A stretch of DNA of 64,000 nt. It comes from Ischnura elegans. Lineage: Eukaryota; Arthropoda; Insecta; Odonata; Coenagrionidae. Both the position numbers and the translations under genes were made by a program. The notes below the pieces were generated by a model. That model saw nothing but the letters and a program-made list of their open reading frames with translations. It searched no databases and had not been told where the DNA came from. The number at the start of each line of letters is the position of its first letter. The stretch's first letter is position 1. The DNA lies in assembly GCF_921293095.1 (NCBI RefSeq), contig NC_060259.1:44621812-44685811 (forward strand), in the 5' to 3' direction. Shown here in pieces: positions 22,931-61,735 of this stretch.

Positions 22931-24981
22931 ACTCCCTTCCTTTTTATAGATCGTGGCAAAATCCTCCGGGCTAAAATTGCTTCGAGGTGAGAAGGAATAA
23001 AACTCGGAGTGCGAATTAGATCTAAAAACAGTCCGTGTCGTGTTTGGTCTCTCCTGTGCCTCTCTGAGGAATATCAAAGTTTATAGTAAAGTTTATCATG
23101 AAATAAATTGAACAGTTCGTGTTCCATGGTTTACATTTATACCCTTTATTTTCTTTTTTGGGCTAGTACTGATTTTCAATCGACATTACGTGCTATAAAT
23201 TCAGCTTTTTCAGTGTTTAATAAATTGAATACTTATAAAAGGGTGAATATTTTCGCCAATATGCGTTAGTTATACTATTATCCATAACATTATCCTTTTG
23301 TATAAATGACATGAAATTTTGAAATTTGATCAATATTCCGAAGCACTCTATATGCTTTTCAGAGTACTTCTTTGGGCTCTCTGTGTTTTGAGTTGAAGCC
23401 TTCGAAGATTGTTGATACAAATTAAGTCCATGGGACAAGAATATTGGTCATTCTTTCTCGTATCGCAAATGCAATGCACATAGTGTATTATATTATCTCT
23501 TTTTCTGTTTAGTATTGCATTTAAGCGTTATCTTCAAGATGGCATGTTTCACGCAGTAAAGAAAATTAGTGAAATAAAGAAGTCTATCGTTGTTCTCAAG
23601 ACGAGAGGAAATAAATTTGGGAGTTAAAATTGAGTTTAAAAATCCAATATGAAATATAAGTCTGATGATTGCTTTGTACCCACTCTTAGAGTAGAAAGGT
23701 TAATTAGTCAACTAAAGTAAATATTTAGCACTTCTAATAAGGAGAATGCGTGTTAATTTTGGCTGAAGTGTTTCCAGCAATAACAAGATATTTATTCTAA
23801 GTACACGGTTCGTGATTTTTTTATTTTAGATAATTACTAATTTTTGTTTTATTAATTAGAAGTGTGATTCTAATAAATGCTTTGGTAATAAACTATTAAC
23901 TTAGGTTTTCAGTGGTGACTTGTGTACTTTACTTCGCAGAATATGCGTTTTTACCGAACACCTATGCCAAACGACCAATATTTCTCTGACCTCCGGAGAC
24001 GGAAAAATGCTTCCGACGGCTTAAAATGTATTTACAGCCCAAGGGGCACGAATGCCATGCCTCGTATCGTAAGTGCGGCGCGTAGGATACTTCCCATTAG
24101 CCTTATTTCCACTTAATTTCGTATCCGCCCCAAAATTTAATCTTAGCGTCTCTGTCAGTATCCGTCGTTCCTAACGCAATTGCCTGTTCGACTGGATCTA
24201 GTTAGGGAGGCAAAGTGCGTATTTCATCAGCCTTAGCCTCCTCTTCGTCTGCTGTTTCCGCCGGCAACATTTCCTCCTATACTGCTTATAATCTCCTTCC
24301 TGGCAACCGTTGCTAGCGAATTTTTTTTATATTGCTCAATATTCTTTTTATATGACTCTTAGGGAATACAGTTCTTTCCTTTAGTTTGAAGGCTTCAGGA
24401 ATAACAGTTATACTAGACCAGAAAATTTAGCAGTTAGATCCTTAAGGATAAAAGCTTAAGGAATTATGATTGTGTTGCGACAAAAATATAGTTGGTAAAT
24501 CCTTAAGGCTGAAGGTTTTAGGGATTATATTATTGCGCGTCCAAATATTTGCTAAATCTATTTGTGAAATGTTACGTATTCCATTTTTATTTTCTATCAG
24601 CATCAAATTTCTGTCTTGTTGTTCTTCTTATACTATTATCGCACCCGCTATGTTACAAGCGGATTTCAATAATAATAAACGGGCTGAAGTCAGGGTGGTG
24701 AGCCCACGTGCTGAAGTCGTCGATCGTGTGGCGGAGGCCTTTCAATTCTTCGGGGCCCGTTTCTTCCGATCACAATAAAGGTAGGGTCATCCATGGAAGG
24801 GCCCCAAAATGGGAAGATCCTTACCCTCGCAACCATCCCATTTGGATGCAGCTTAATCGAATTCCTCTTTACCAATCAACATTTGGCAGCCCATATACTT
24901 TTTACTATTCCTCTCCGTCGTTTTTTGCTATAATTTTTTTTAAAGGCACTTAAGGGTTAAAGGTGTTCCATTTCTGCTTCA
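22931..24981. other. Non-coding stretch, no feature recognised
   Basis: AT-rich, with short ORFs that carry no motifs. Confidence 0.4.
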
Positions 24982-42140: not shown

Positions 42141-43735
42141 CCAAGGTCGCTTCCAATGACCATGAGGAACACCTTAGCTTCCTGTGCATTGATGCTTTTT
42201 TACGCCACATTGTCCTCAATCTCTGCAATCATTGGAGCCATCAAGTAAAACCATTACTGTACTTACATGATGAATAAATCGTGGAAGTATTCATACGCTC
42301 TCAAATATAATATAAATAATTAGGCATGATAGAACTCAGTTACATGTGTCCGATGTGATTTAATATGAGTATGAATAGCTTTTTCATACCCGTTCCCCAT
42401 GCTTATTGACATACTCGTGGAATTTTTTCCAATTTGTTTTTGCTTCTTTGAGTGAACCTTTCGTGAAAATTGCTAAGTAGATCATACAAAAATTTTTAAT
42501 TGCTCCTTTGCTCGGAATAGGGACTACTTCGTACCCATAATCTGGTTCCGTGTAATATATAATCCGTGTGATTTAAATTCTCGTTCCATTTTGATGAGAG
42601 ATTCGTTTTAAGGTTTGCAAAATCATGAAAGAACATAAATTATTATCGGAAAGTGTGAGAAATCGAAGTAATGTTTTAACTTTTCAGTCTCTAGTTGCGC
42701 ATTATTTCTTGGTGATATTGAAATTCTCGCTTAGTTCAATTTAGTGGATAACATGAATATCCTCACCCATAAACTGAATACCCATGATTTATTCCGCTGA
42801 TGTCACGTTTCATCACATCTGGGTTTGGTTCCTGTTAGTGAAACGGATGCGTTAACCTTTTCAGTCAGACATTTTTTTCTCAACGTGGATAAAAATTATT
42901 CTTTTTGCTATTTAAATTTAATTATGGCGTCATGAACACTTCGCCAAAGTTATTGGCTATTTCATTTTCATAAATATCAAACAATTTTTTCTTCAGTGAC
43001 GTAATATTTTCTTCTTATGTTAAACGAGAGGAATATTCCTGTAGATGGAGAATATACGATTTTTCATACGCGAATATAAGATTCATCTGTTTGCAACTCT
43101 TTATTTTCTAAGATGGCCATGTTGTAAATGGAAGTCAACACTTTGTACTCATCAGATATTAGGATCTGCATTGGTAAATTATTCTCCGTACAATTTATTT
43201 GCGAAGAGTCAATACAATGCTAATGCTGTTGCTCCAAGTCTTCCCTGGGCGAAAATGAGATTGGCTAGGGTTGATGAGATAGTTGGGTCAATAGGGAAGG
43301 TGACCGAACTCGGTGGTCTTTTGAATTGAAGATGGGTTGTGACGGCAACATTATTCGGTGATGGAATTGGTGGAGGCGAAATTCCCTTCGTTTGGTGTTG
43401 TGTTGATTCAAGCGCACGAGAACAGCCTCCCACGATCCCTTGCTTGTCATCCCATATGGTCTGGAGAAGAATGGCCAATACCTACCGATGCAGGATCGAG
43501 GTCAGGGAAGTAGTAAAACTCCCCCGACTGGAAATAATTGCAATACGCAATTCAGTACTTCTCTAGTCGGATGGCTATGCAGGAAACAAACAATGATAAC
43601 GGTCATCTGAAGTTCTACGGGTTGATTGGGAGGTTCGTAAAATAATACTTATTCTTGGGTTCATTTGATTTTTAGTTTAACGTAACGTTCTCTCATCCAA
43701 CTTTTTGCGGAGAGATGTGGTGGAACAGTATATCT
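42141..43735. other. Non-coding stretch, no feature recognised
   Basis: AT-rich. The overlapping ORFs at 43.0-43.6 kb lack motifs. Confidence 0.4.
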
Positions 43736-43951
43736 AATGATCAACAAGGATATCGCATTGCCCACAATTTTTATTATTACAGCTTACTAGACGTGTTTCG
43801 ATTGTAACACAATCATCATCAGATACTTGTCCTGATTTAGATCCTGATCATCAGTACTAGTATCTAGTACCTGATGATGATTGCGTTACGATAGCGAGTA
43901 GTAAGCTGTAATAATAAAATTTGTGGGCAACACGATATCTTAGTTGATCAT
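43736..43951. mobile_element. Palindromic hammerhead element (216 bp)
   Basis: The arms begin AATGATCAACAAGGATATCG and end with the inverse ..GATATCTTAGTTGATCAT. Both contain CACAATTTTTATTATTACAG or its inverse. The left arm carries an intact-looking hammerhead core in antisense (43790-43822). The right arm retains CTGATGATGATTGCGTTACG but has lost GAAAC..GTC. TATCT flanks both ends (43731-43735, 43952-43956), possibly a short TSD. It abuts the RTE-like LINE fragment on its right. Confidence 0.65.
43790..43822 (-). ncRNA. Hammerhead ribozyme motif, type I minimal
   Basis: The minus strand gives CTGATGA, a U, GATTG-TGTTA-CAATC as a five-pair stem II with a 5-nt loop, GAA, then ACACGT and C. 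AC/GU would be stem III with a two-base loop. All core positions except the bulged U fit the hammerhead rule CUGANGA...GAA...NUH. Confidence 0.6.
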
Positions 43952-43959
43952 TATCTTCC

Positions 43960-44850
43960 TTTGCACTTTCTTCTTTATTTTACCTATGCATTTATTTCCT
44001 TTTCCTTTATTTATCCCTAGGCGTTTCTCGTGGGGCTTATCCCTCTAGTTTTCATTCAATTATATTCATCACGAATCCGTTGTGGCTCAGGGTATCACCA
44101 ATCCTTCTCGTTCTTTTTTCTAAATGGTGTTTGATAAGATTCTTCTACTCTCCTGTATACTTCTTCGTTCCTTATTTTATTCGTCGATTAAATCTTCAGC
44201 ATCTTCCTCCAGCGCCAGATTTTGAAAAATTCAAGCCTTTTTCGGTCTACTGTTCCGATGATCCATGCTTTTGATCCATAGAGTGCCATGCTTTACACAC
44301 GTGTTTTTTGCTGTTTTCTTGTCCCTAGGCCGATCTTCTTTGATCACAGCTCTTGTCCTTTCATCATGATTGCTTTCTTAGCCTAAGTTATTCTTCGCTT
44401 GATGTCCATGGTACTTCTTCCGTCCCAAATAATGGTACTTCCTAGATTGGTGAAAGAATCCACTTCCTCCAAAATTAGTCGCTCAATGTGACGTATAAGT
44501 TTAACTTTTCTATTCCACAAACTAATTTTTTTGTCTTAGCGTTATTCAACAATGTGTCTATTCTCATGTTATGCTTCTGCAGAACTTGATGCATTGCGCT
44601 TTGTGACCTTTGAAAATCGTCCCGACTTCCTGTTACGACAGAGATATCGTCGACGAAACAGAAAATGTTTATTTCACTTTCTTTGATCTTAATTCCATTT
44701 AGTCCGATAGCTCCAGTCAGTCCCGATCCAGTTAATTCCCTTACGATAGGTACTAATAAAATGAAATGATGGGCTTGAAAAGAATGTATCCATGATATTT
44801 TACTCCTTTTTTCAGCCATGTGAAATGAAGGGGTAAAAATACACTCCACT
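43960..44850 (-). pseudogene. RTE-like LINE fragment with FVDD reverse transcriptase box
   Basis: On the minus strand the frame from 44849 contains SEINIFCFVDDISVVTGSRD, then LLNNAKTKKLVCG. This is RT motif 5 (normally YADD; FVDD here) and the following K-T-K segment. Downstream frames continue LEEVDSFTNLGSTIIWDGRS, DIKRRIT, SMALYGSKAWIIGTVDRKRL, WRWRKMLKI, RNEEVYRRVEES and HNGFVMNIIE. Several in-frame stops and a frameshift are present. This is the longest RT remnant in the window and joins the RT palm to the C-terminal region also seen at 38.7, 49.8, 58.3 and 63.2 kb. Confidence 0.85.
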
Positions 44851-45011
44851 TTTCCACCGTCCCTTTTGATATTTGAATTTATAAAAATTTAAATCTTGTG
44901 CGCATTTATGACAACCTCCTTATCCTATCCATTACTATATATATATCCATACCATACGTCATTGAAACTTCCGCCGAATATTTTCTTACTCGGCAAGAAA
45001 CCCGAGAATTA

Positions 45012-50958: not shown

Positions 50959-53546
50959 CCGACGTCTCACGCCGCGGCGGTACTCACGCAAGTCTCCCGC
51001 GAGACCTCCAGACTCGAGGTGAGACCCGAACAATCTCCCGGTTCACGCACAGTCGGTCACTGCCGCGCTCCACCATAGTTTCGCCAGTATCACTCTACGC
51101 CACAACGCTATTCTAAAATCGTGATACAGCAAGCTGCGCCTTAAGTAAGTCGGGTGGTGGAAGAACAGGGTGATGTGTTTTCCGATCGACAAGTTTGAGA
51201 CAAACATAAGTGCCGACGACATTTTTTCGGTGGCGGCTATTAACCCTCTTCCGACTAGGCGGCGGTGGCAAATGCGGCGGGGATCGAGTAAAATGTCTCT
51301 ACGTACTTTTCAAGAGCGAATTTTTTTATGAAGACGCAATCATTGCGTGATGACGCCCTGAAGGAACCTAGTTCAATGTCGAATGCAAATGGCAGAAAGG
51401 CAAAACACAAAATGTCATTATCGCTAGATATATGTAGATCGCTAATGATCTTTGATGGTTTTCAAATAACCGTAGTCAAGGTCATGGTTTGAGAAAAACA
51501 CCATTCCCAAGAAGAAATGGAACGAGAGGGAAGCATATCTGTCCTCCGGCAACTGTCGCACAGGTTGGTGAACTCGCCGATTTTGCGCCTTTTACGAGTT
51601 CGCAGCGGAAGCGTGCGATAATGGGCTGGTGGCGGCGGTTTAGCTTGCCCGCGCCCACGTCTATTTTGAGTCCCTGCCAATGAGCGGTGAGTGTCAGCGG
51701 AGCATTTCAAAAGCGCTCGGCAGTAAATTTACGAATTTTGCCATCGAAAAGGCAAATTCGCGGCTTTAATATCATGAAGTCCAGTCTCGCGCCTATGTCG
51801 TATTTATTCGCGTGCATCGCATCAGTATCGCATTTATCGCATATACGATTTTCACGTATCTCTAATAATGATTGAATTGAATGACTTATTAAATTGAGCC
51901 AACTCATTTAAACCGATATATTAATTGTTGTATTCAGTAGTCAAAATATCGCAATTTATATTGCTACTGGTACCTTAGTGGAAAAATATATAGTAAACAG
52001 TGAACTGTATCATTACTTCCACTTACATTTTCCCTTTTTCTTCCTTAACTATCAGTTTCTTAGAACTGAAATATGGGTGCGCCTATGCGCAAATAGATAC
52101 GTACAGTGATAAAGCTAAATCAATACTGTTTTAATTTAAGAATAATGTTCCCTTAAGTTCTCTAAATTCGTTGAATTTTTCCATGTTACGGTATTTACCG
52201 AATCACTCATAATGCGTCGAAGGCTGGGTCCAGAGCAAATTGGCGTAAGAAACTTCTTCTTTGCTGCTTACTAAACTTAGTCGGGCTAGACATGAGGTTT
52301 AGGAAAGTAGCTATTTAATGCTGAATGTTTTTTTCCTCCAAAATTGTCAATGACAGCATCTAGTATGCGCCAAGTTAATAGCGTCTTGCGAGTAAAGCAA
52401 CAGACTATTTCAGAGGCCTTCCTCATTGTTATTCAACTGCAAAGTACAGTTATTGCGTTAGTAACCGTTCCATATGGATAGGTAATATTCACACATTCAA
52501 TATAATTATTCACAATGGGTACCTACGCGCTTTTATTGCTGAAATACAAAGAATTATCTCTGAACATTATTACACTGAGCACAGGATCGTAGTAAAGCAG
52601 TAGATGCTGGTACTTCTCCTTCCTGCAGCCATGGCAATGATCCCGCGTGATGTTCTGTTCGTGCTGCACCCAAGATGCTTATACGATTTTCCAAGTACTT
52701 TGGAGAAGACGAGGTGAGAAATTCTGAGGAGATCAAGACTTGTTAGTTTGAGAGTATTTGTAGGTAAGAGAATGCTTTTACGAGAATTTATAGGTCAACT
52801 TGATGTGAGGAGCTACTAAGACATTTGAGCATTCTAGGGCCGGTATAGAATGTGAAAGAATGGTACTAAGGAATCGAGGCACCTTAGAGAGCAAGCTAGA
52901 ATAGTAACTTCCCTTCAAATTTGACGTCTCTCCGTCGATATTTAGCTTGACTGACATTTTTGAGCATACATTCTGAGAGCTAAACAGAATCGATTAACGG
53001 TAGAGAGAGAAAAATTTTGTTAGTTTCCCCGTACTCGGCGTAAGTCTCTACGAAAGTTATGGGCTGTATCCCAACCTAATATCATGCCCTTAAACCTGAT
53101 TCTGCAGTCGTCCGTTAAGCGTGCGCTTTATCTTTGACTTGCACAGGATATGAAGCCGTCCTTACGACTTCCCGGTTAGCGGGGCAGTGACTTGGCTACT
53201 TCAGTCGTCATTATGACCAGTCATAAAACTGAACTATTCAAATCTTGGAAACGAAATACGTGTTCTTGATACACAACGCGAGAATTTACCATACAAATAC
53301 TCACCCAGATTTGGCACTTAAACTGTGGTTTTTACCGTGGCATTTTATTAAGTGCGTATTGTGTCATATAGTTTTGTTTTTCGATCATAATTACCATTTA
53401 AAATCCAAATGGCAGTATTCACTCTGAATTTTACTCAGAACATCGATCTATGTGCTCCGCAGTCAACGTTTCAACAAATATTTCTAACTCTTTCTGTATC
53501 ATATGCGGATCTCGCATTGAAAACCAACGTTAATAAATTTGCTAAG
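50959..53546. other. Non-coding stretch with a GC-rich patch at 51.0-51.3 kb
   Basis: 50960-51300 and 51540-51670 are CpG-richer than the surroundings and could be regulatory. No exon is recognisable. The rest is AT-rich without features. Confidence 0.35.
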
Positions 53547-53609
53547 GTTATGTTAGTCTGAGTAAACTTCTCTCGGGTTTCCCACCGGGTTAAAGGCTTC
53601 ATAATGGCC

Positions 53610-53644
53610 GACGTTTCGAGCTCCGACTCGGCGCTCATCATCAG
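53610..53644 (-). ncRNA. Hammerhead ribozyme motif in the Penelope-like 3' region
   Basis: Minus strand: CTGATGA, U, GAGC...GCTC stem II, GAA, ACGT, C. Stem III would be two pairs with no spare loop bases, the extremely short form known from Penelope-like elements. Efficient cleavage in this form is thought to need dimeric RNA. It lies about 57 nt downstream of the ORF stop. Confidence 0.65.
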
Positions 53645-53700
53645 GGCTACTGGATGCTGTGATGCGGGAATGGGCCTGCTTATATGCTGCCCTTCTCCGG

Positions 53701-53932
53701 TCAGGTTCCTCGGGATTGGCTGGTAGTTTCCCGCCTGGTGGGGTTGACTCCGGATTGGTCTGTCCGTCGTATCGTCCTTTCCCTGTATTCGGTCAGTTTT
53801 TTCAGAACGGGTTTCCAAGTGCTGCTAAGGGAATACCCTGAATCGCGATTAAAGTTCTTCCTCTCCAGTTTAATTTCGATGGCCTCTTTGGTGAGACGGT
53901 CCCAAAAACTTTTGTGATGACAAAGTATCTCT
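53701..53932 (-). pseudogene. Penelope-like RT/endonuclease C-terminus
   Basis: Within the element the frame reads EILCHHKSFWDRLTKEAIEI, then KLERKNFNRDSGYSLSSTWK and PVLKKLTEY, and ends ETTSQSRGT. The W-D-R...EAIEI...N-x-NRD-x-G-x-x-LS-x-x-W pattern is the C-terminal end after the GIY-YIG endonuclease in Penelope-like proteins. The GIY-YIG and RT domains themselves are missing because of 5' truncation. No stop or frameshift interrupts the retained part. Confidence 0.8.
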
Positions 53933-60155: not shown

Positions 60156-61080
60156 GGGGAAAAATGATTTTTTTCATTTCTTTGCACAGAATGATGCACC
60201 GATAGAGCTGAGGACATCTCATTTAGTCTTGGAGGTTCCGCCATCAAATGAAATTGATTTCGTTGTCGTCGTCTTAACCTTCCTCGCGAAGAATCGCCTC
60301 CGCTTCCTGATGTCATTTACAAATATTTAAATATGCTAGCCCAAAAAATAGGCTTATTGTGGATTAAGTTTGTAGAGATAAAGTGGATCGAGTTTTTCTG
60401 CAGCTCATTATTGTGGTTGGGAAAAATTGATTCGATTTCGATTATTCTGGGGGAGACATGTCCCATTGAAAAATAAAAAATGCCGGGTCGATTCAAAGGA
60501 AAACCCGAAAAGGTTTAGATGCATCGATTTTTGGGGATAAATGTTATAATAAAGAAATTTTTGAACCGACTCAAAGGGACGAAACTATTTTTTATTGAGA
60601 TCAAACGTGAACTCAGCAGGTACTGTTAAGGAAAATTGGGTTAGAAATTGGAAAATGCATGATTTTAGAGCCATTCTGTGAAAGTTTCGCCGAATTGTGG
60701 CTTTTTCGGGAAAAAATATTTCGTCCGTTTTTTTTATATCTACGACTGAAGTGTAGCCACACATTTAAGAGTGCATTACTAGAGGGCTCTAGGTAACTTC
60801 GACACAGCTCGGTGTCACGGTGCGGGGAACGGGCAGTTGGCCTGCCGCTCGCCGGGAGTGAAATAAAATTCATGCCGCACTCTCGTTAAGAATTTTATAC
60901 GAGGGAATTGCAACAAATTTCTATGGAGGGATTTAAAAAAATCGGATGCTTCCAATTTCAGAGAAGAGTTAAATAGACTGCCTCTTCTGGTATCGATATT
61001 TTTAGATCCAATTAAAGACCAAAATTTACCAAAGTGATACCCTTACGTGTAGATTATAAAGGAAAGGTTTCGAACTTTGG
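60156..61080. other. Non-coding stretch, no feature recognised
   Basis: AT-rich, no supported feature. Confidence 0.4.
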
Positions 61081-61149
61081 TAACGTTCTTCTACTGAGAG
61101 TAAAAGATTGAACACCAATGCAGCTTCCACTTAAATCTTTATTAGATAC

Positions 61150-61182
61150 GACCATGGTTTCGTAGCGATGCTACATCATCAG
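61150..61182 (-). ncRNA. Hammerhead ribozyme motif (left arm)
   Basis: Minus strand: CTGATGA, U, GTAGC-ATC-GCTAC stem II, GAA, ACC-AT-GGT stem III, C. It is an exact inverse copy of the motif at 61259-61291. Confidence 0.7.
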
Positions 61183-61258
61183 GAATGCTACATCATCAAA
61201 ATATATATGACATGGGTTTTTACGACATATATACCCATGTCGTTTACTTTTTGTCCAC

Positions 61259-61291
61259 CTGATGATGTAGCATCGCTACGAAACCATGGTC
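61259..61291 (+). ncRNA. Hammerhead ribozyme motif (right arm)
   Basis: Plus strand: CTGATGA, U, GTAGC-ATC-GCTAC stem II with a three-base loop, GAA, ACC-AT-GGT stem III, then C as the nucleotide before the cleavage site. The conserved hammerhead core bases are all present. Only the bulged U before stem II departs from the textbook form. This is the best-formed motif in the window. Confidence 0.7.
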
Positions 61292-61470
61292 GTATCTAAT
61301 AAAGATTTAAGTGGAAGCTGCATTAGTGTTCAATCTTTTACTCTCAGTATGATTGACTTCCACAGAGTATTGCCTGAGACAGTGTCGCATAACGTTCTTC
61401 TATTTAAATCATTCCTGAAAAAATCTGTTATCAAACTAATATACAGTATCTTTAACAACAACAGTTAGTC

Positions 61471-61735
61471 TGGTGGATGGCGCGTCCGATTTTCACCTGG
61501 GGGGCTCGTGTTCGATACTTCATCACGGCAGAACATTTTGCCGGCCTCGGTGGCAGCGGGGTAACGTTCTTGCCTGCCAAACAAGAGGTCGCGGGTTCAA
61601 GTCCCACCTTGGTAGGTTTCCCCGATCCAGGGCATGGTTGTTTGTGTACGTTTACTTGCTATATTTGTTGAACACCCCGGTGTAAAATGGCCAAGAAAAG
61701 CTGTATCCGGTGGTTTGAGAATAAAAATAAATAAA
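61471..61735 (+). mobile_element. tRNA-derived SINE, with a second tRNA-like head upstream
   Basis: At 61540 GCCGGCCTCGGTGGCAGCGG starts a tRNA-like head with A-box TGGCAGCGGGG and B-box GGTTCAAGTCC (61594-61604). It continues through an unrelated body to an A-rich tail AATAAAAATAAATAAAA near 61718-61735. Just upstream, 61471-61530 looks like another tRNA-like unit (GGTGGATGGCGCG..., B-box-like GTGTTCGATAC). Both could be transcribed by RNA polymerase III in principle. Overlapping ORFs here are not genes. Confidence 0.7.

Follow-up and report, generated by a model that had tools for sequence, protein, structure and literature searches.

How an insertion of only 296 bp came to carry two outward-reading hammerhead motifs is the question raised by a locus in a 64,000-nucleotide stretch of the Ischnura elegans genome (the window). 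The insertion route of Penelope-like elements (PLEs) and the role of their ribozymes are questions on which the end points of roughly 30 insertions, all within a single genome, offer a natural record; in this record both strands seem to prime and two start sites seem to be used once each. From the arms, the tail, the target duplication, the hammerhead cores and the coding relatives that we observed, we infer that the focal element is, with good probability, a recent, body-less copy of an endonuclease-bearing PLE, inserted by two-strand priming at two start sites on the RNA.

Direct reading of the window together with a repeat search delimited the element to 61094-61389 (Table 1). Repeat and pattern searches confirmed what the first-pass annotation had described, namely an insertion with an exact 13-bp duplication, inverted arms that each hold a full hammerhead core, one per strand, and a 42-nt tail on one side, the right. 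The inverted arms match over 92 nt (61092-61183 and 61258-61349) with 1 mismatch, 2 nt of the match being common to the duplication, and sister copies of the left arm terminate within a few nt of the same outer point. A central palindrome (61205-61237) might be taken for the original 5' end of the repeat, a reading that was rejected because the left part of the palindrome is filler according to the sister copies. The annotation's statement that there is no ORF was nearly right, as a coding body is absent, but a frame from the ATG at 61286 is open for 39 codons, the last of which lie inside the target duplication. This frame is perhaps the truncated start of a PLE ORF, for which a single frame is weak evidence alone; the upstream ATGATG of the right arm is followed by a stop codon. 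The pseudo-LTRs (pLTRs) of PAc, a Poseidon element of Anolis carolinensis, and of Pen2a_Av, a Penelope element of Adineta vaga, hold or border the ORF start (PMC11167929, PMC3846280; these and the other published accounts are cited from the available parts of their text).

Table 1. Positions of the focal insertion and of related features in the window
Feature	Position	Strand	Basis or remark
Left target site duplication copy	61081..61093		exact 13-bp repeat, TAACGTTCTTCTA
Left arm, inverted pseudo-LTR fragment without tail	61094..61183	- (sense), outward-reading	repeat search, sister copies
Type I hammerhead core, left arm, minimal helix III	61150..61182	-	pattern search and structured scan
Junction filler between arms	61184..61226		includes 14-nt re-copy of adjacent arm (ATGCTACATCATCA)
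Right arm, pseudo-LTR fragment with tail	61227..61389	+ (sense), outward-reading	sister-copy mapping
Type I hammerhead core, right arm, sequence identical to left-arm core	61259..61291	+	pattern search and structured scan
Open frame from ATG at hammerhead end	61286..61389	+	right arm
Tail, 42 nt, right arm only	61348..61389	+	one tail in 28/28 two-armed events
Right target site duplication copy	61390..61402		exact 13-bp repeat, TAACGTTCTTCTA
Third motif, same hammerhead type, single	53610..53644	-	frame open through its CTGATGATG
Second inverted hammerhead pair, older	43735..43953		tail 43696-43734, left only

The earlier reading had been staked on the presence of other copies in the source genome, and its refutation failed because copies with target duplications of their own exist. 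When 61094-61389 was used to query the assembly (1.72 Gb, 110 contigs), at least 107 matches were returned, falling into about 35 clusters; scoring covered 40 of the 46 candidates, so that copy numbers are lower bounds, and the two arms of the query bias the set toward two-armed copies. Clusters were grouped by eye, and the 34 besides the focal one were fetched and the unit was mapped onto each. The 35 clusters were reduced to 32 events, as L048, whose flanks are those of L047, was removed as a duplicate, and L053, L054 and L056 were merged into one event because they have the same flank and the same body start. Twenty-eight events are two-armed, 1 is one-armed and 3 (L038, L051 and L060) have no assigned layout. 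Each two-armed event with a resolved layout combines one tailed and one tail-less arm (28/28), the tail-less one reaching to within a few nt of the focal left-arm end point; the tail of L057 is partial (18 nt), and one arm of L049 consists of the tail almost alone. Exact target duplications of 9-14 bp, mostly 12 bp, flank 26 of the 28. Arm-length and duplication statistics were taken on 27 of these events, with L050 resolved separately: exact duplications of at least 9 bp were present in 25/27 (16 of them 12 bp), L050 adds one of 12 bp, and in L045 and L057 a duplication of 9 bp or more was not found. In 400 trials with mispaired flanks, no duplication exceeded 8 bp. The one-armed event, L053, lacks a second arm: it has one end only, without a tail, and a 12-13-bp duplication. 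The body of L053 starts directly at the left duplication, and a later insertion has split it. Copies of the focal family are about 98% alike.

The interiors of long copies revealed the class of the element. They encode an endonuclease segment of the GIY-YIG type (GVYMLQCSDCPAIYIGQTGRKF..; L036, L040, L045, L046 and L062) and a reverse transcriptase (RT) with FYGLPKIHK..MGSPLSP..HRYVDDVF (L045 and L046). Against Pfam, L046 matched RVT_1 with 38 bits (cutoff 29.6) and GIY-YIG with 20.8 bits, slightly below the cutoff of 22.6; for the L062 endonuclease fragment Pfam gave no GIY-YIG match, only a bacterial globin below cutoff. The NCBIfam matches of two L046 fragments, to a group I intron endonuclease and to RT families of bacteria, were all far below cutoff. 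The RT-endonuclease fragment has five database protein matches, and the relative P0003 holds RT and GIY-YIG Pfam domains together, at 55% identity over 77% of the query. In the assembly, an RT search gave 5289 first-look candidates, and most of the 129 scored are related RTs at 45-67% identity, several of them in open frames of 840-873 aa. Some of these related long frames stand in close pairs, e.g. at C8:5717236-5728790. Only two of the 129 scored belong to the focal family (100%, L046; 93%, the L060 locus), a list that is incomplete because L045 was missed, and no full-length intact focal-family copy was among them. Exact-pattern scans of viral contigs and of prokaryote genome contigs gave 0 matches each, as expected for a eukaryotic repeat. 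The resemblance to PLEs noted in the first-pass annotation is borne out by these long relatives, which have the same ends and encode an RT and a GIY-YIG-like endonuclease. RT and GIY-YIG domains in sister copies of the body-less focal copy, inverted head-to-head pLTRs of which one is tailed, a target site duplication (13 bp at the focal copy) with 5' truncation at variable inner ends, and a hammerhead near a putative ORF start, found by a motif scan compared with shuffles, are all features of endonuclease-bearing PLEs.

The focal element is a recent insertion of a known class and is well explained by published PLE biology. An inverted pLTR pair with one tail is already described for animal PLEs (PMC3846280, PMC11167929), and we do not claim the one-tail pattern as unpublished; what our data add is a quantitative footprint of PLE insertion, of which the useful details are the one-tail pattern, the matched arm lengths and how few arms end where the ribozyme would cut.

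Two other kinds of element were weighed against this class assignment. Long inverted repeats, short size and a target duplication are also what a MITE or other DNA transposon bounded by long terminal inverted repeats would show, the hammerhead-like letters then being due to chance. Here the inverted repeats do not form both termini, as the 42-nt tail extends beyond one arm, the duplication is mostly 12-13 bp with variable interiors, and relatives encode an RT and a GIY-YIG-like endonuclease, which contradicts such an origin; we regard it as almost certainly wrong. A non-autonomous form had been suggested in the first-pass annotation. An element specialised in this way, either retrozyme-like or a SINE derived from a PLE, that spreads as the 296-bp unit and processes its RNA by the ribozymes, would account for the many copies with both hammerheads (exact cores in 13/26 sister elements), and metazoan retrozymes that yield RNAs of about 170-400 nt do exist (PMC7229834). 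Copies, however, range from 118 to 2066 bp with interiors and truncation points that vary from one to the next, the focal junction has no second copy in any other fetched locus of the genome, and the arms are inverted where those of retrozymes are in tandem; a direct tandem of the whole unit was found in none of the mapped loci. The size range and the differing inner junctions thus point to 5'-truncated insertions and not to a separate non-autonomous design, which we consider very improbable. At the short end of the range, L063 (C2), L064 (C11) and L061 (C1) are tiny inverted PLE insertions of 118-161 bp without a hammerhead, consisting of the post-hammerhead segment and one tail between 12-13-bp duplications, and would be hard to recognise without the sister copies.

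An insertion by two-strand priming would proceed as follows. The PLE protein would nick both strands of the target about 12-13 bp apart, and each nicked 3' end would prime reverse transcription within the PLE RNA. One cDNA would begin at an inner start site and lack the tail, the other about 42 nt further 3' and include it; both would pass the uncleaved hammerhead toward the 5' end of the RNA and stop early. Joining of the two cDNA ends head to head, via short overlaps or re-copied filler, would produce mirrored arms with one tail. The one-armed L053, and L045 and L057 with no duplication of 9 bp or more, speak against this route. The ribozymes would then be passengers at the focal locus, the transcript of which would fold into a long hairpin.

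The competing account is self-priming, where a single cDNA (or an antisense template) folds back and is copied into mirrored arms; such an origin has been suggested for PLE repeats that meet head to head in a palindrome (PMC3846280). Nearly equal arms in 15/27 events agree with it, as does L063, which is an almost perfect short hairpin. A copied arm should nevertheless match the tail state of its template, yet all 28 two-armed events are mixed. One cDNA copied into both arms does not readily account for a tailed end paired with a tail-less one in every case, and two initiations per insertion is the simpler reading. Inner ends can also be widely unequal (825/414, 167/652, 120/1531 and 1531/111), as expected for two separate early-stopping cDNAs, although a hairpin loop could yield some very unequal arms. 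On balance we find self-priming unlikely.

The arm lengths are not explained in full by two independent cDNAs. They lie within 20 nt of each other in 15/27 events, as compared to 4.4 expected (15 was reached in 0 of 20,000 shuffles), and within 5 nt in 8/27, as compared to 1.85 (reached in 4 of 20,000 shuffles), both limits having been chosen by the analyst and applied to a sample biased to two-armed copies; over all events the ranks correlate weakly (Spearman 0.38, p 0.054). Lengths were entered by hand from the mapping, with the focal left arm taken at its BLAST end (89), 1531 being the reference arm length, L039 entered without its second short piece and L062 across its internal deletion. 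The match goes against independence of the two cDNAs, and we infer that a common RNA 5' end would explain it. A shared-template comparison gave 0.684 mean differences both within and between elements, the copies being too alike to discriminate. At the junctions, overlaps of a few nt were observed in L036, L040, L045 and L059, and filler re-copied from the arms in L044 (23 nt), L043 (17 nt) and the focal copy (14 nt); in several other junctions a clear re-copied source for the filler is absent.

The state of the template was visible in the inner arm ends. An RNA cut by the hammerhead would begin at position 55, and 0/54 arms end at the cut position (52-55) while 45/54 reach beyond it, which argues that the template was uncut in almost every arm extending to the site. 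L059 may be an exception with a cleaved template, its tail arm stopping at 57, 2 nt past the cleavage site and inside a 5-nt overlap; in L062 an internal deletion spans the cut site. With purified PAc protein, both strands of the target are cut and extended, reverse transcription begins at two internal RNA positions separated by the tail length, and unprocessed RNA is the main substrate; within the available text there is no start-site difference between the strands, which counts against the proposed route (PMC11167929). A tentative alternative, which we would put below even odds, is an asymmetric complex with one subunit at the inner site and its partner at the outer, copying from a common RNA 5' end with the hammerhead uncut. 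If this holds, the one-tail rule and the matched arm lengths would be built into the mechanism.

The natural record agrees with the PAc in vitro system and adds a testable quantitative pattern (PMC11167929). As in PAc, the hammerhead core lies just before the putative ORF start, the cut site being about 30 nt past the first ATG of CTGATGATG in the focal element and 26 in PAc; two internal RT start sites would be separated by the tail, and both target strands would be cut and extended. Focal arms end about 86 and 128 nt past the first ATG, and the main PAc start is at 111-118. In the genomic copies, unlike the in vitro system, every two-armed insertion combines the inner and the outer start site, each used once. 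Pen2a_Av resembles the focal family in having an inverted pLTR at one end and an optional one-sided tail; in Adineta vaga Penelope elements a 31-bp tail is optional at the 3' end of one inverted pLTR, target site duplications are 8-10 bp, head-to-head junctions are palindromic and the pLTR contains the ORF start (PMC3846280). As far as that text is available, the focal copy differs from Pen2a_Av in lacking a coding body, and its family in having duplications of mostly 12-13 bp, a tail of 42 nt and re-copied filler in several junctions. The metazoan non-LTR retrozymes are likewise short and low in G+C with type I hammerheads, but are described as direct tandem repeats with linear and circular RNA, whereas the arms of the focal element are inverted and meet at a junction specific to this copy (PMC7229834).

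What the hammerheads do at this locus is a separate matter. The same core (CTGATGATGTAGCATCGCTACGAAACCATGGTC) lies on the + strand at 61259-61291 and on the - strand at 61182-61150, both reading outward, with CTGATGA, GTAGC/GCTAC, GAA, ACC/GGT and C in each arm; judged by these letters, cleavage in the left arm is expected after the C at 61150. A structured hammerhead scan of the window gave 6 matches, of which those at 23662 and 39539 look like chance, and 100 dinucleotide shuffles gave 0 matches in 89, 1 in 10 and 2 in 1. CTGATGATG occurs 6 times in the window (0.46 expected). The description of the ribozymes as intact-looking applies to the core letters, which are complete, but not to the structure, as helix III in a single RNA has two pairs only (AC/GU, with a CAUG loop) and an extra U stands between A9 and stem II, as it also does in the motifs at 53644 and 43822. 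Moreover, the covariance search that the annotation had suggested matched no Rfam hammerhead family, neither at the gathering score in the whole window nor at E<=10 in the 701 bp around the element. Sub-threshold Rfam matches around the element, mainly to hairpin microRNA families, were rejected, as they are due to the long inverted repeat.

PLEs typically carry minimal type I motifs that lack helix III, and such motifs may function as dimers (PMC7761336). These PLE/Terminon hammerheads share with the focal motif the near lack of helix III, and the self-complementary ACCAUGGU could allow two RNA molecules to pair (predicted 8 bp, -11.2 kcal/mol). The published tandem copies may dimerise, whereas the focal copies are opposed, and as the partner motif is antisense a single RNA of the focal locus cannot hold two sense copies. 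That the antisense copy would fold over the ribozyme, as the annotation had suggested, was predicted for full transcripts: the best fold has -181.5 kcal/mol for the + transcript (-115.6 with the hammerhead imposed) and -183.9 for the - transcript (-129.2). Arms alone, however, also favour other folds (-28.3 vs -20.2 and -21.1 vs -8.2 kcal/mol for best and hammerhead folds), so that the predicted penalty is 8-13 kcal/mol in single-arm RNAs and 55-66 in full transcripts, energies that leave out tertiary contacts, co-transcriptional folding and protein. The mirrored arm is thereby predicted to sequester the motif, and self-cleavage of RNA from the focal locus appears doubtful because no covariance model matched and the arm-pairing fold is strongly preferred in the models. 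The hammerhead of PAc did not cleave without its protein (PMC11167929). The exact 33-nt core is kept in both arms of 13/26 sister elements, which cannot be interpreted as selection because these copies are too young. Most likely, the pair of ribozymes is a by-product of the two-sided insertion and not a device.

The focal pair is not unique in the window, as a second, older inverted pair is present (Table 1). Its outer arms are 91% complementary, with an intact motif in the left arm and a decayed one in the right, and a target duplication was searched for at 43735-43953 and not found, perhaps through age. Its hammerhead, layout and tail suggest that it probably belongs to another PLE family. 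The assembly search with this family gave 730 first-look candidates, and among the 40 scored the best full-length non-self matches were 72-77%. In nine copies, comprising eight fetched ones and the window copy that defined the tail, the tail was recognisable on one side in 8/9 and on both sides in 0/9; for the tail score the null 95% was 9 and the maximum 12, and the weakest copy, L073, scored 15. The remaining copy (L069) has the tail on neither side and a similar extension of another sequence on both. The third motif stands alone, in a frame of 117 codons within 53400-53824 (-), 57 of them from its CTGATGATG on. Its 266-nt unit gave 1658 first-look candidates in the assembly, and the family is very uniform, the main matches among the 40 scored being 98-100% identical; some copies have opposed partners nearby.

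Pfam searches of six ORFs in the window gave one weak RVT_1 match only, below cutoff. An RT-like ORF fragment is located at 44478-44888 (-), with RVT_1 at E 0.0002, below the curated cutoff. Beside the focal element, at 61541-61680, lies what we read as a tRNA-like SINE, with an Rfam tRNA match at 61544-61600 below threshold; the SINE and the focal target site have the 12-mer GGTAACGTTCTT in common (61560-61571 and 61079-61090), perhaps by chance.
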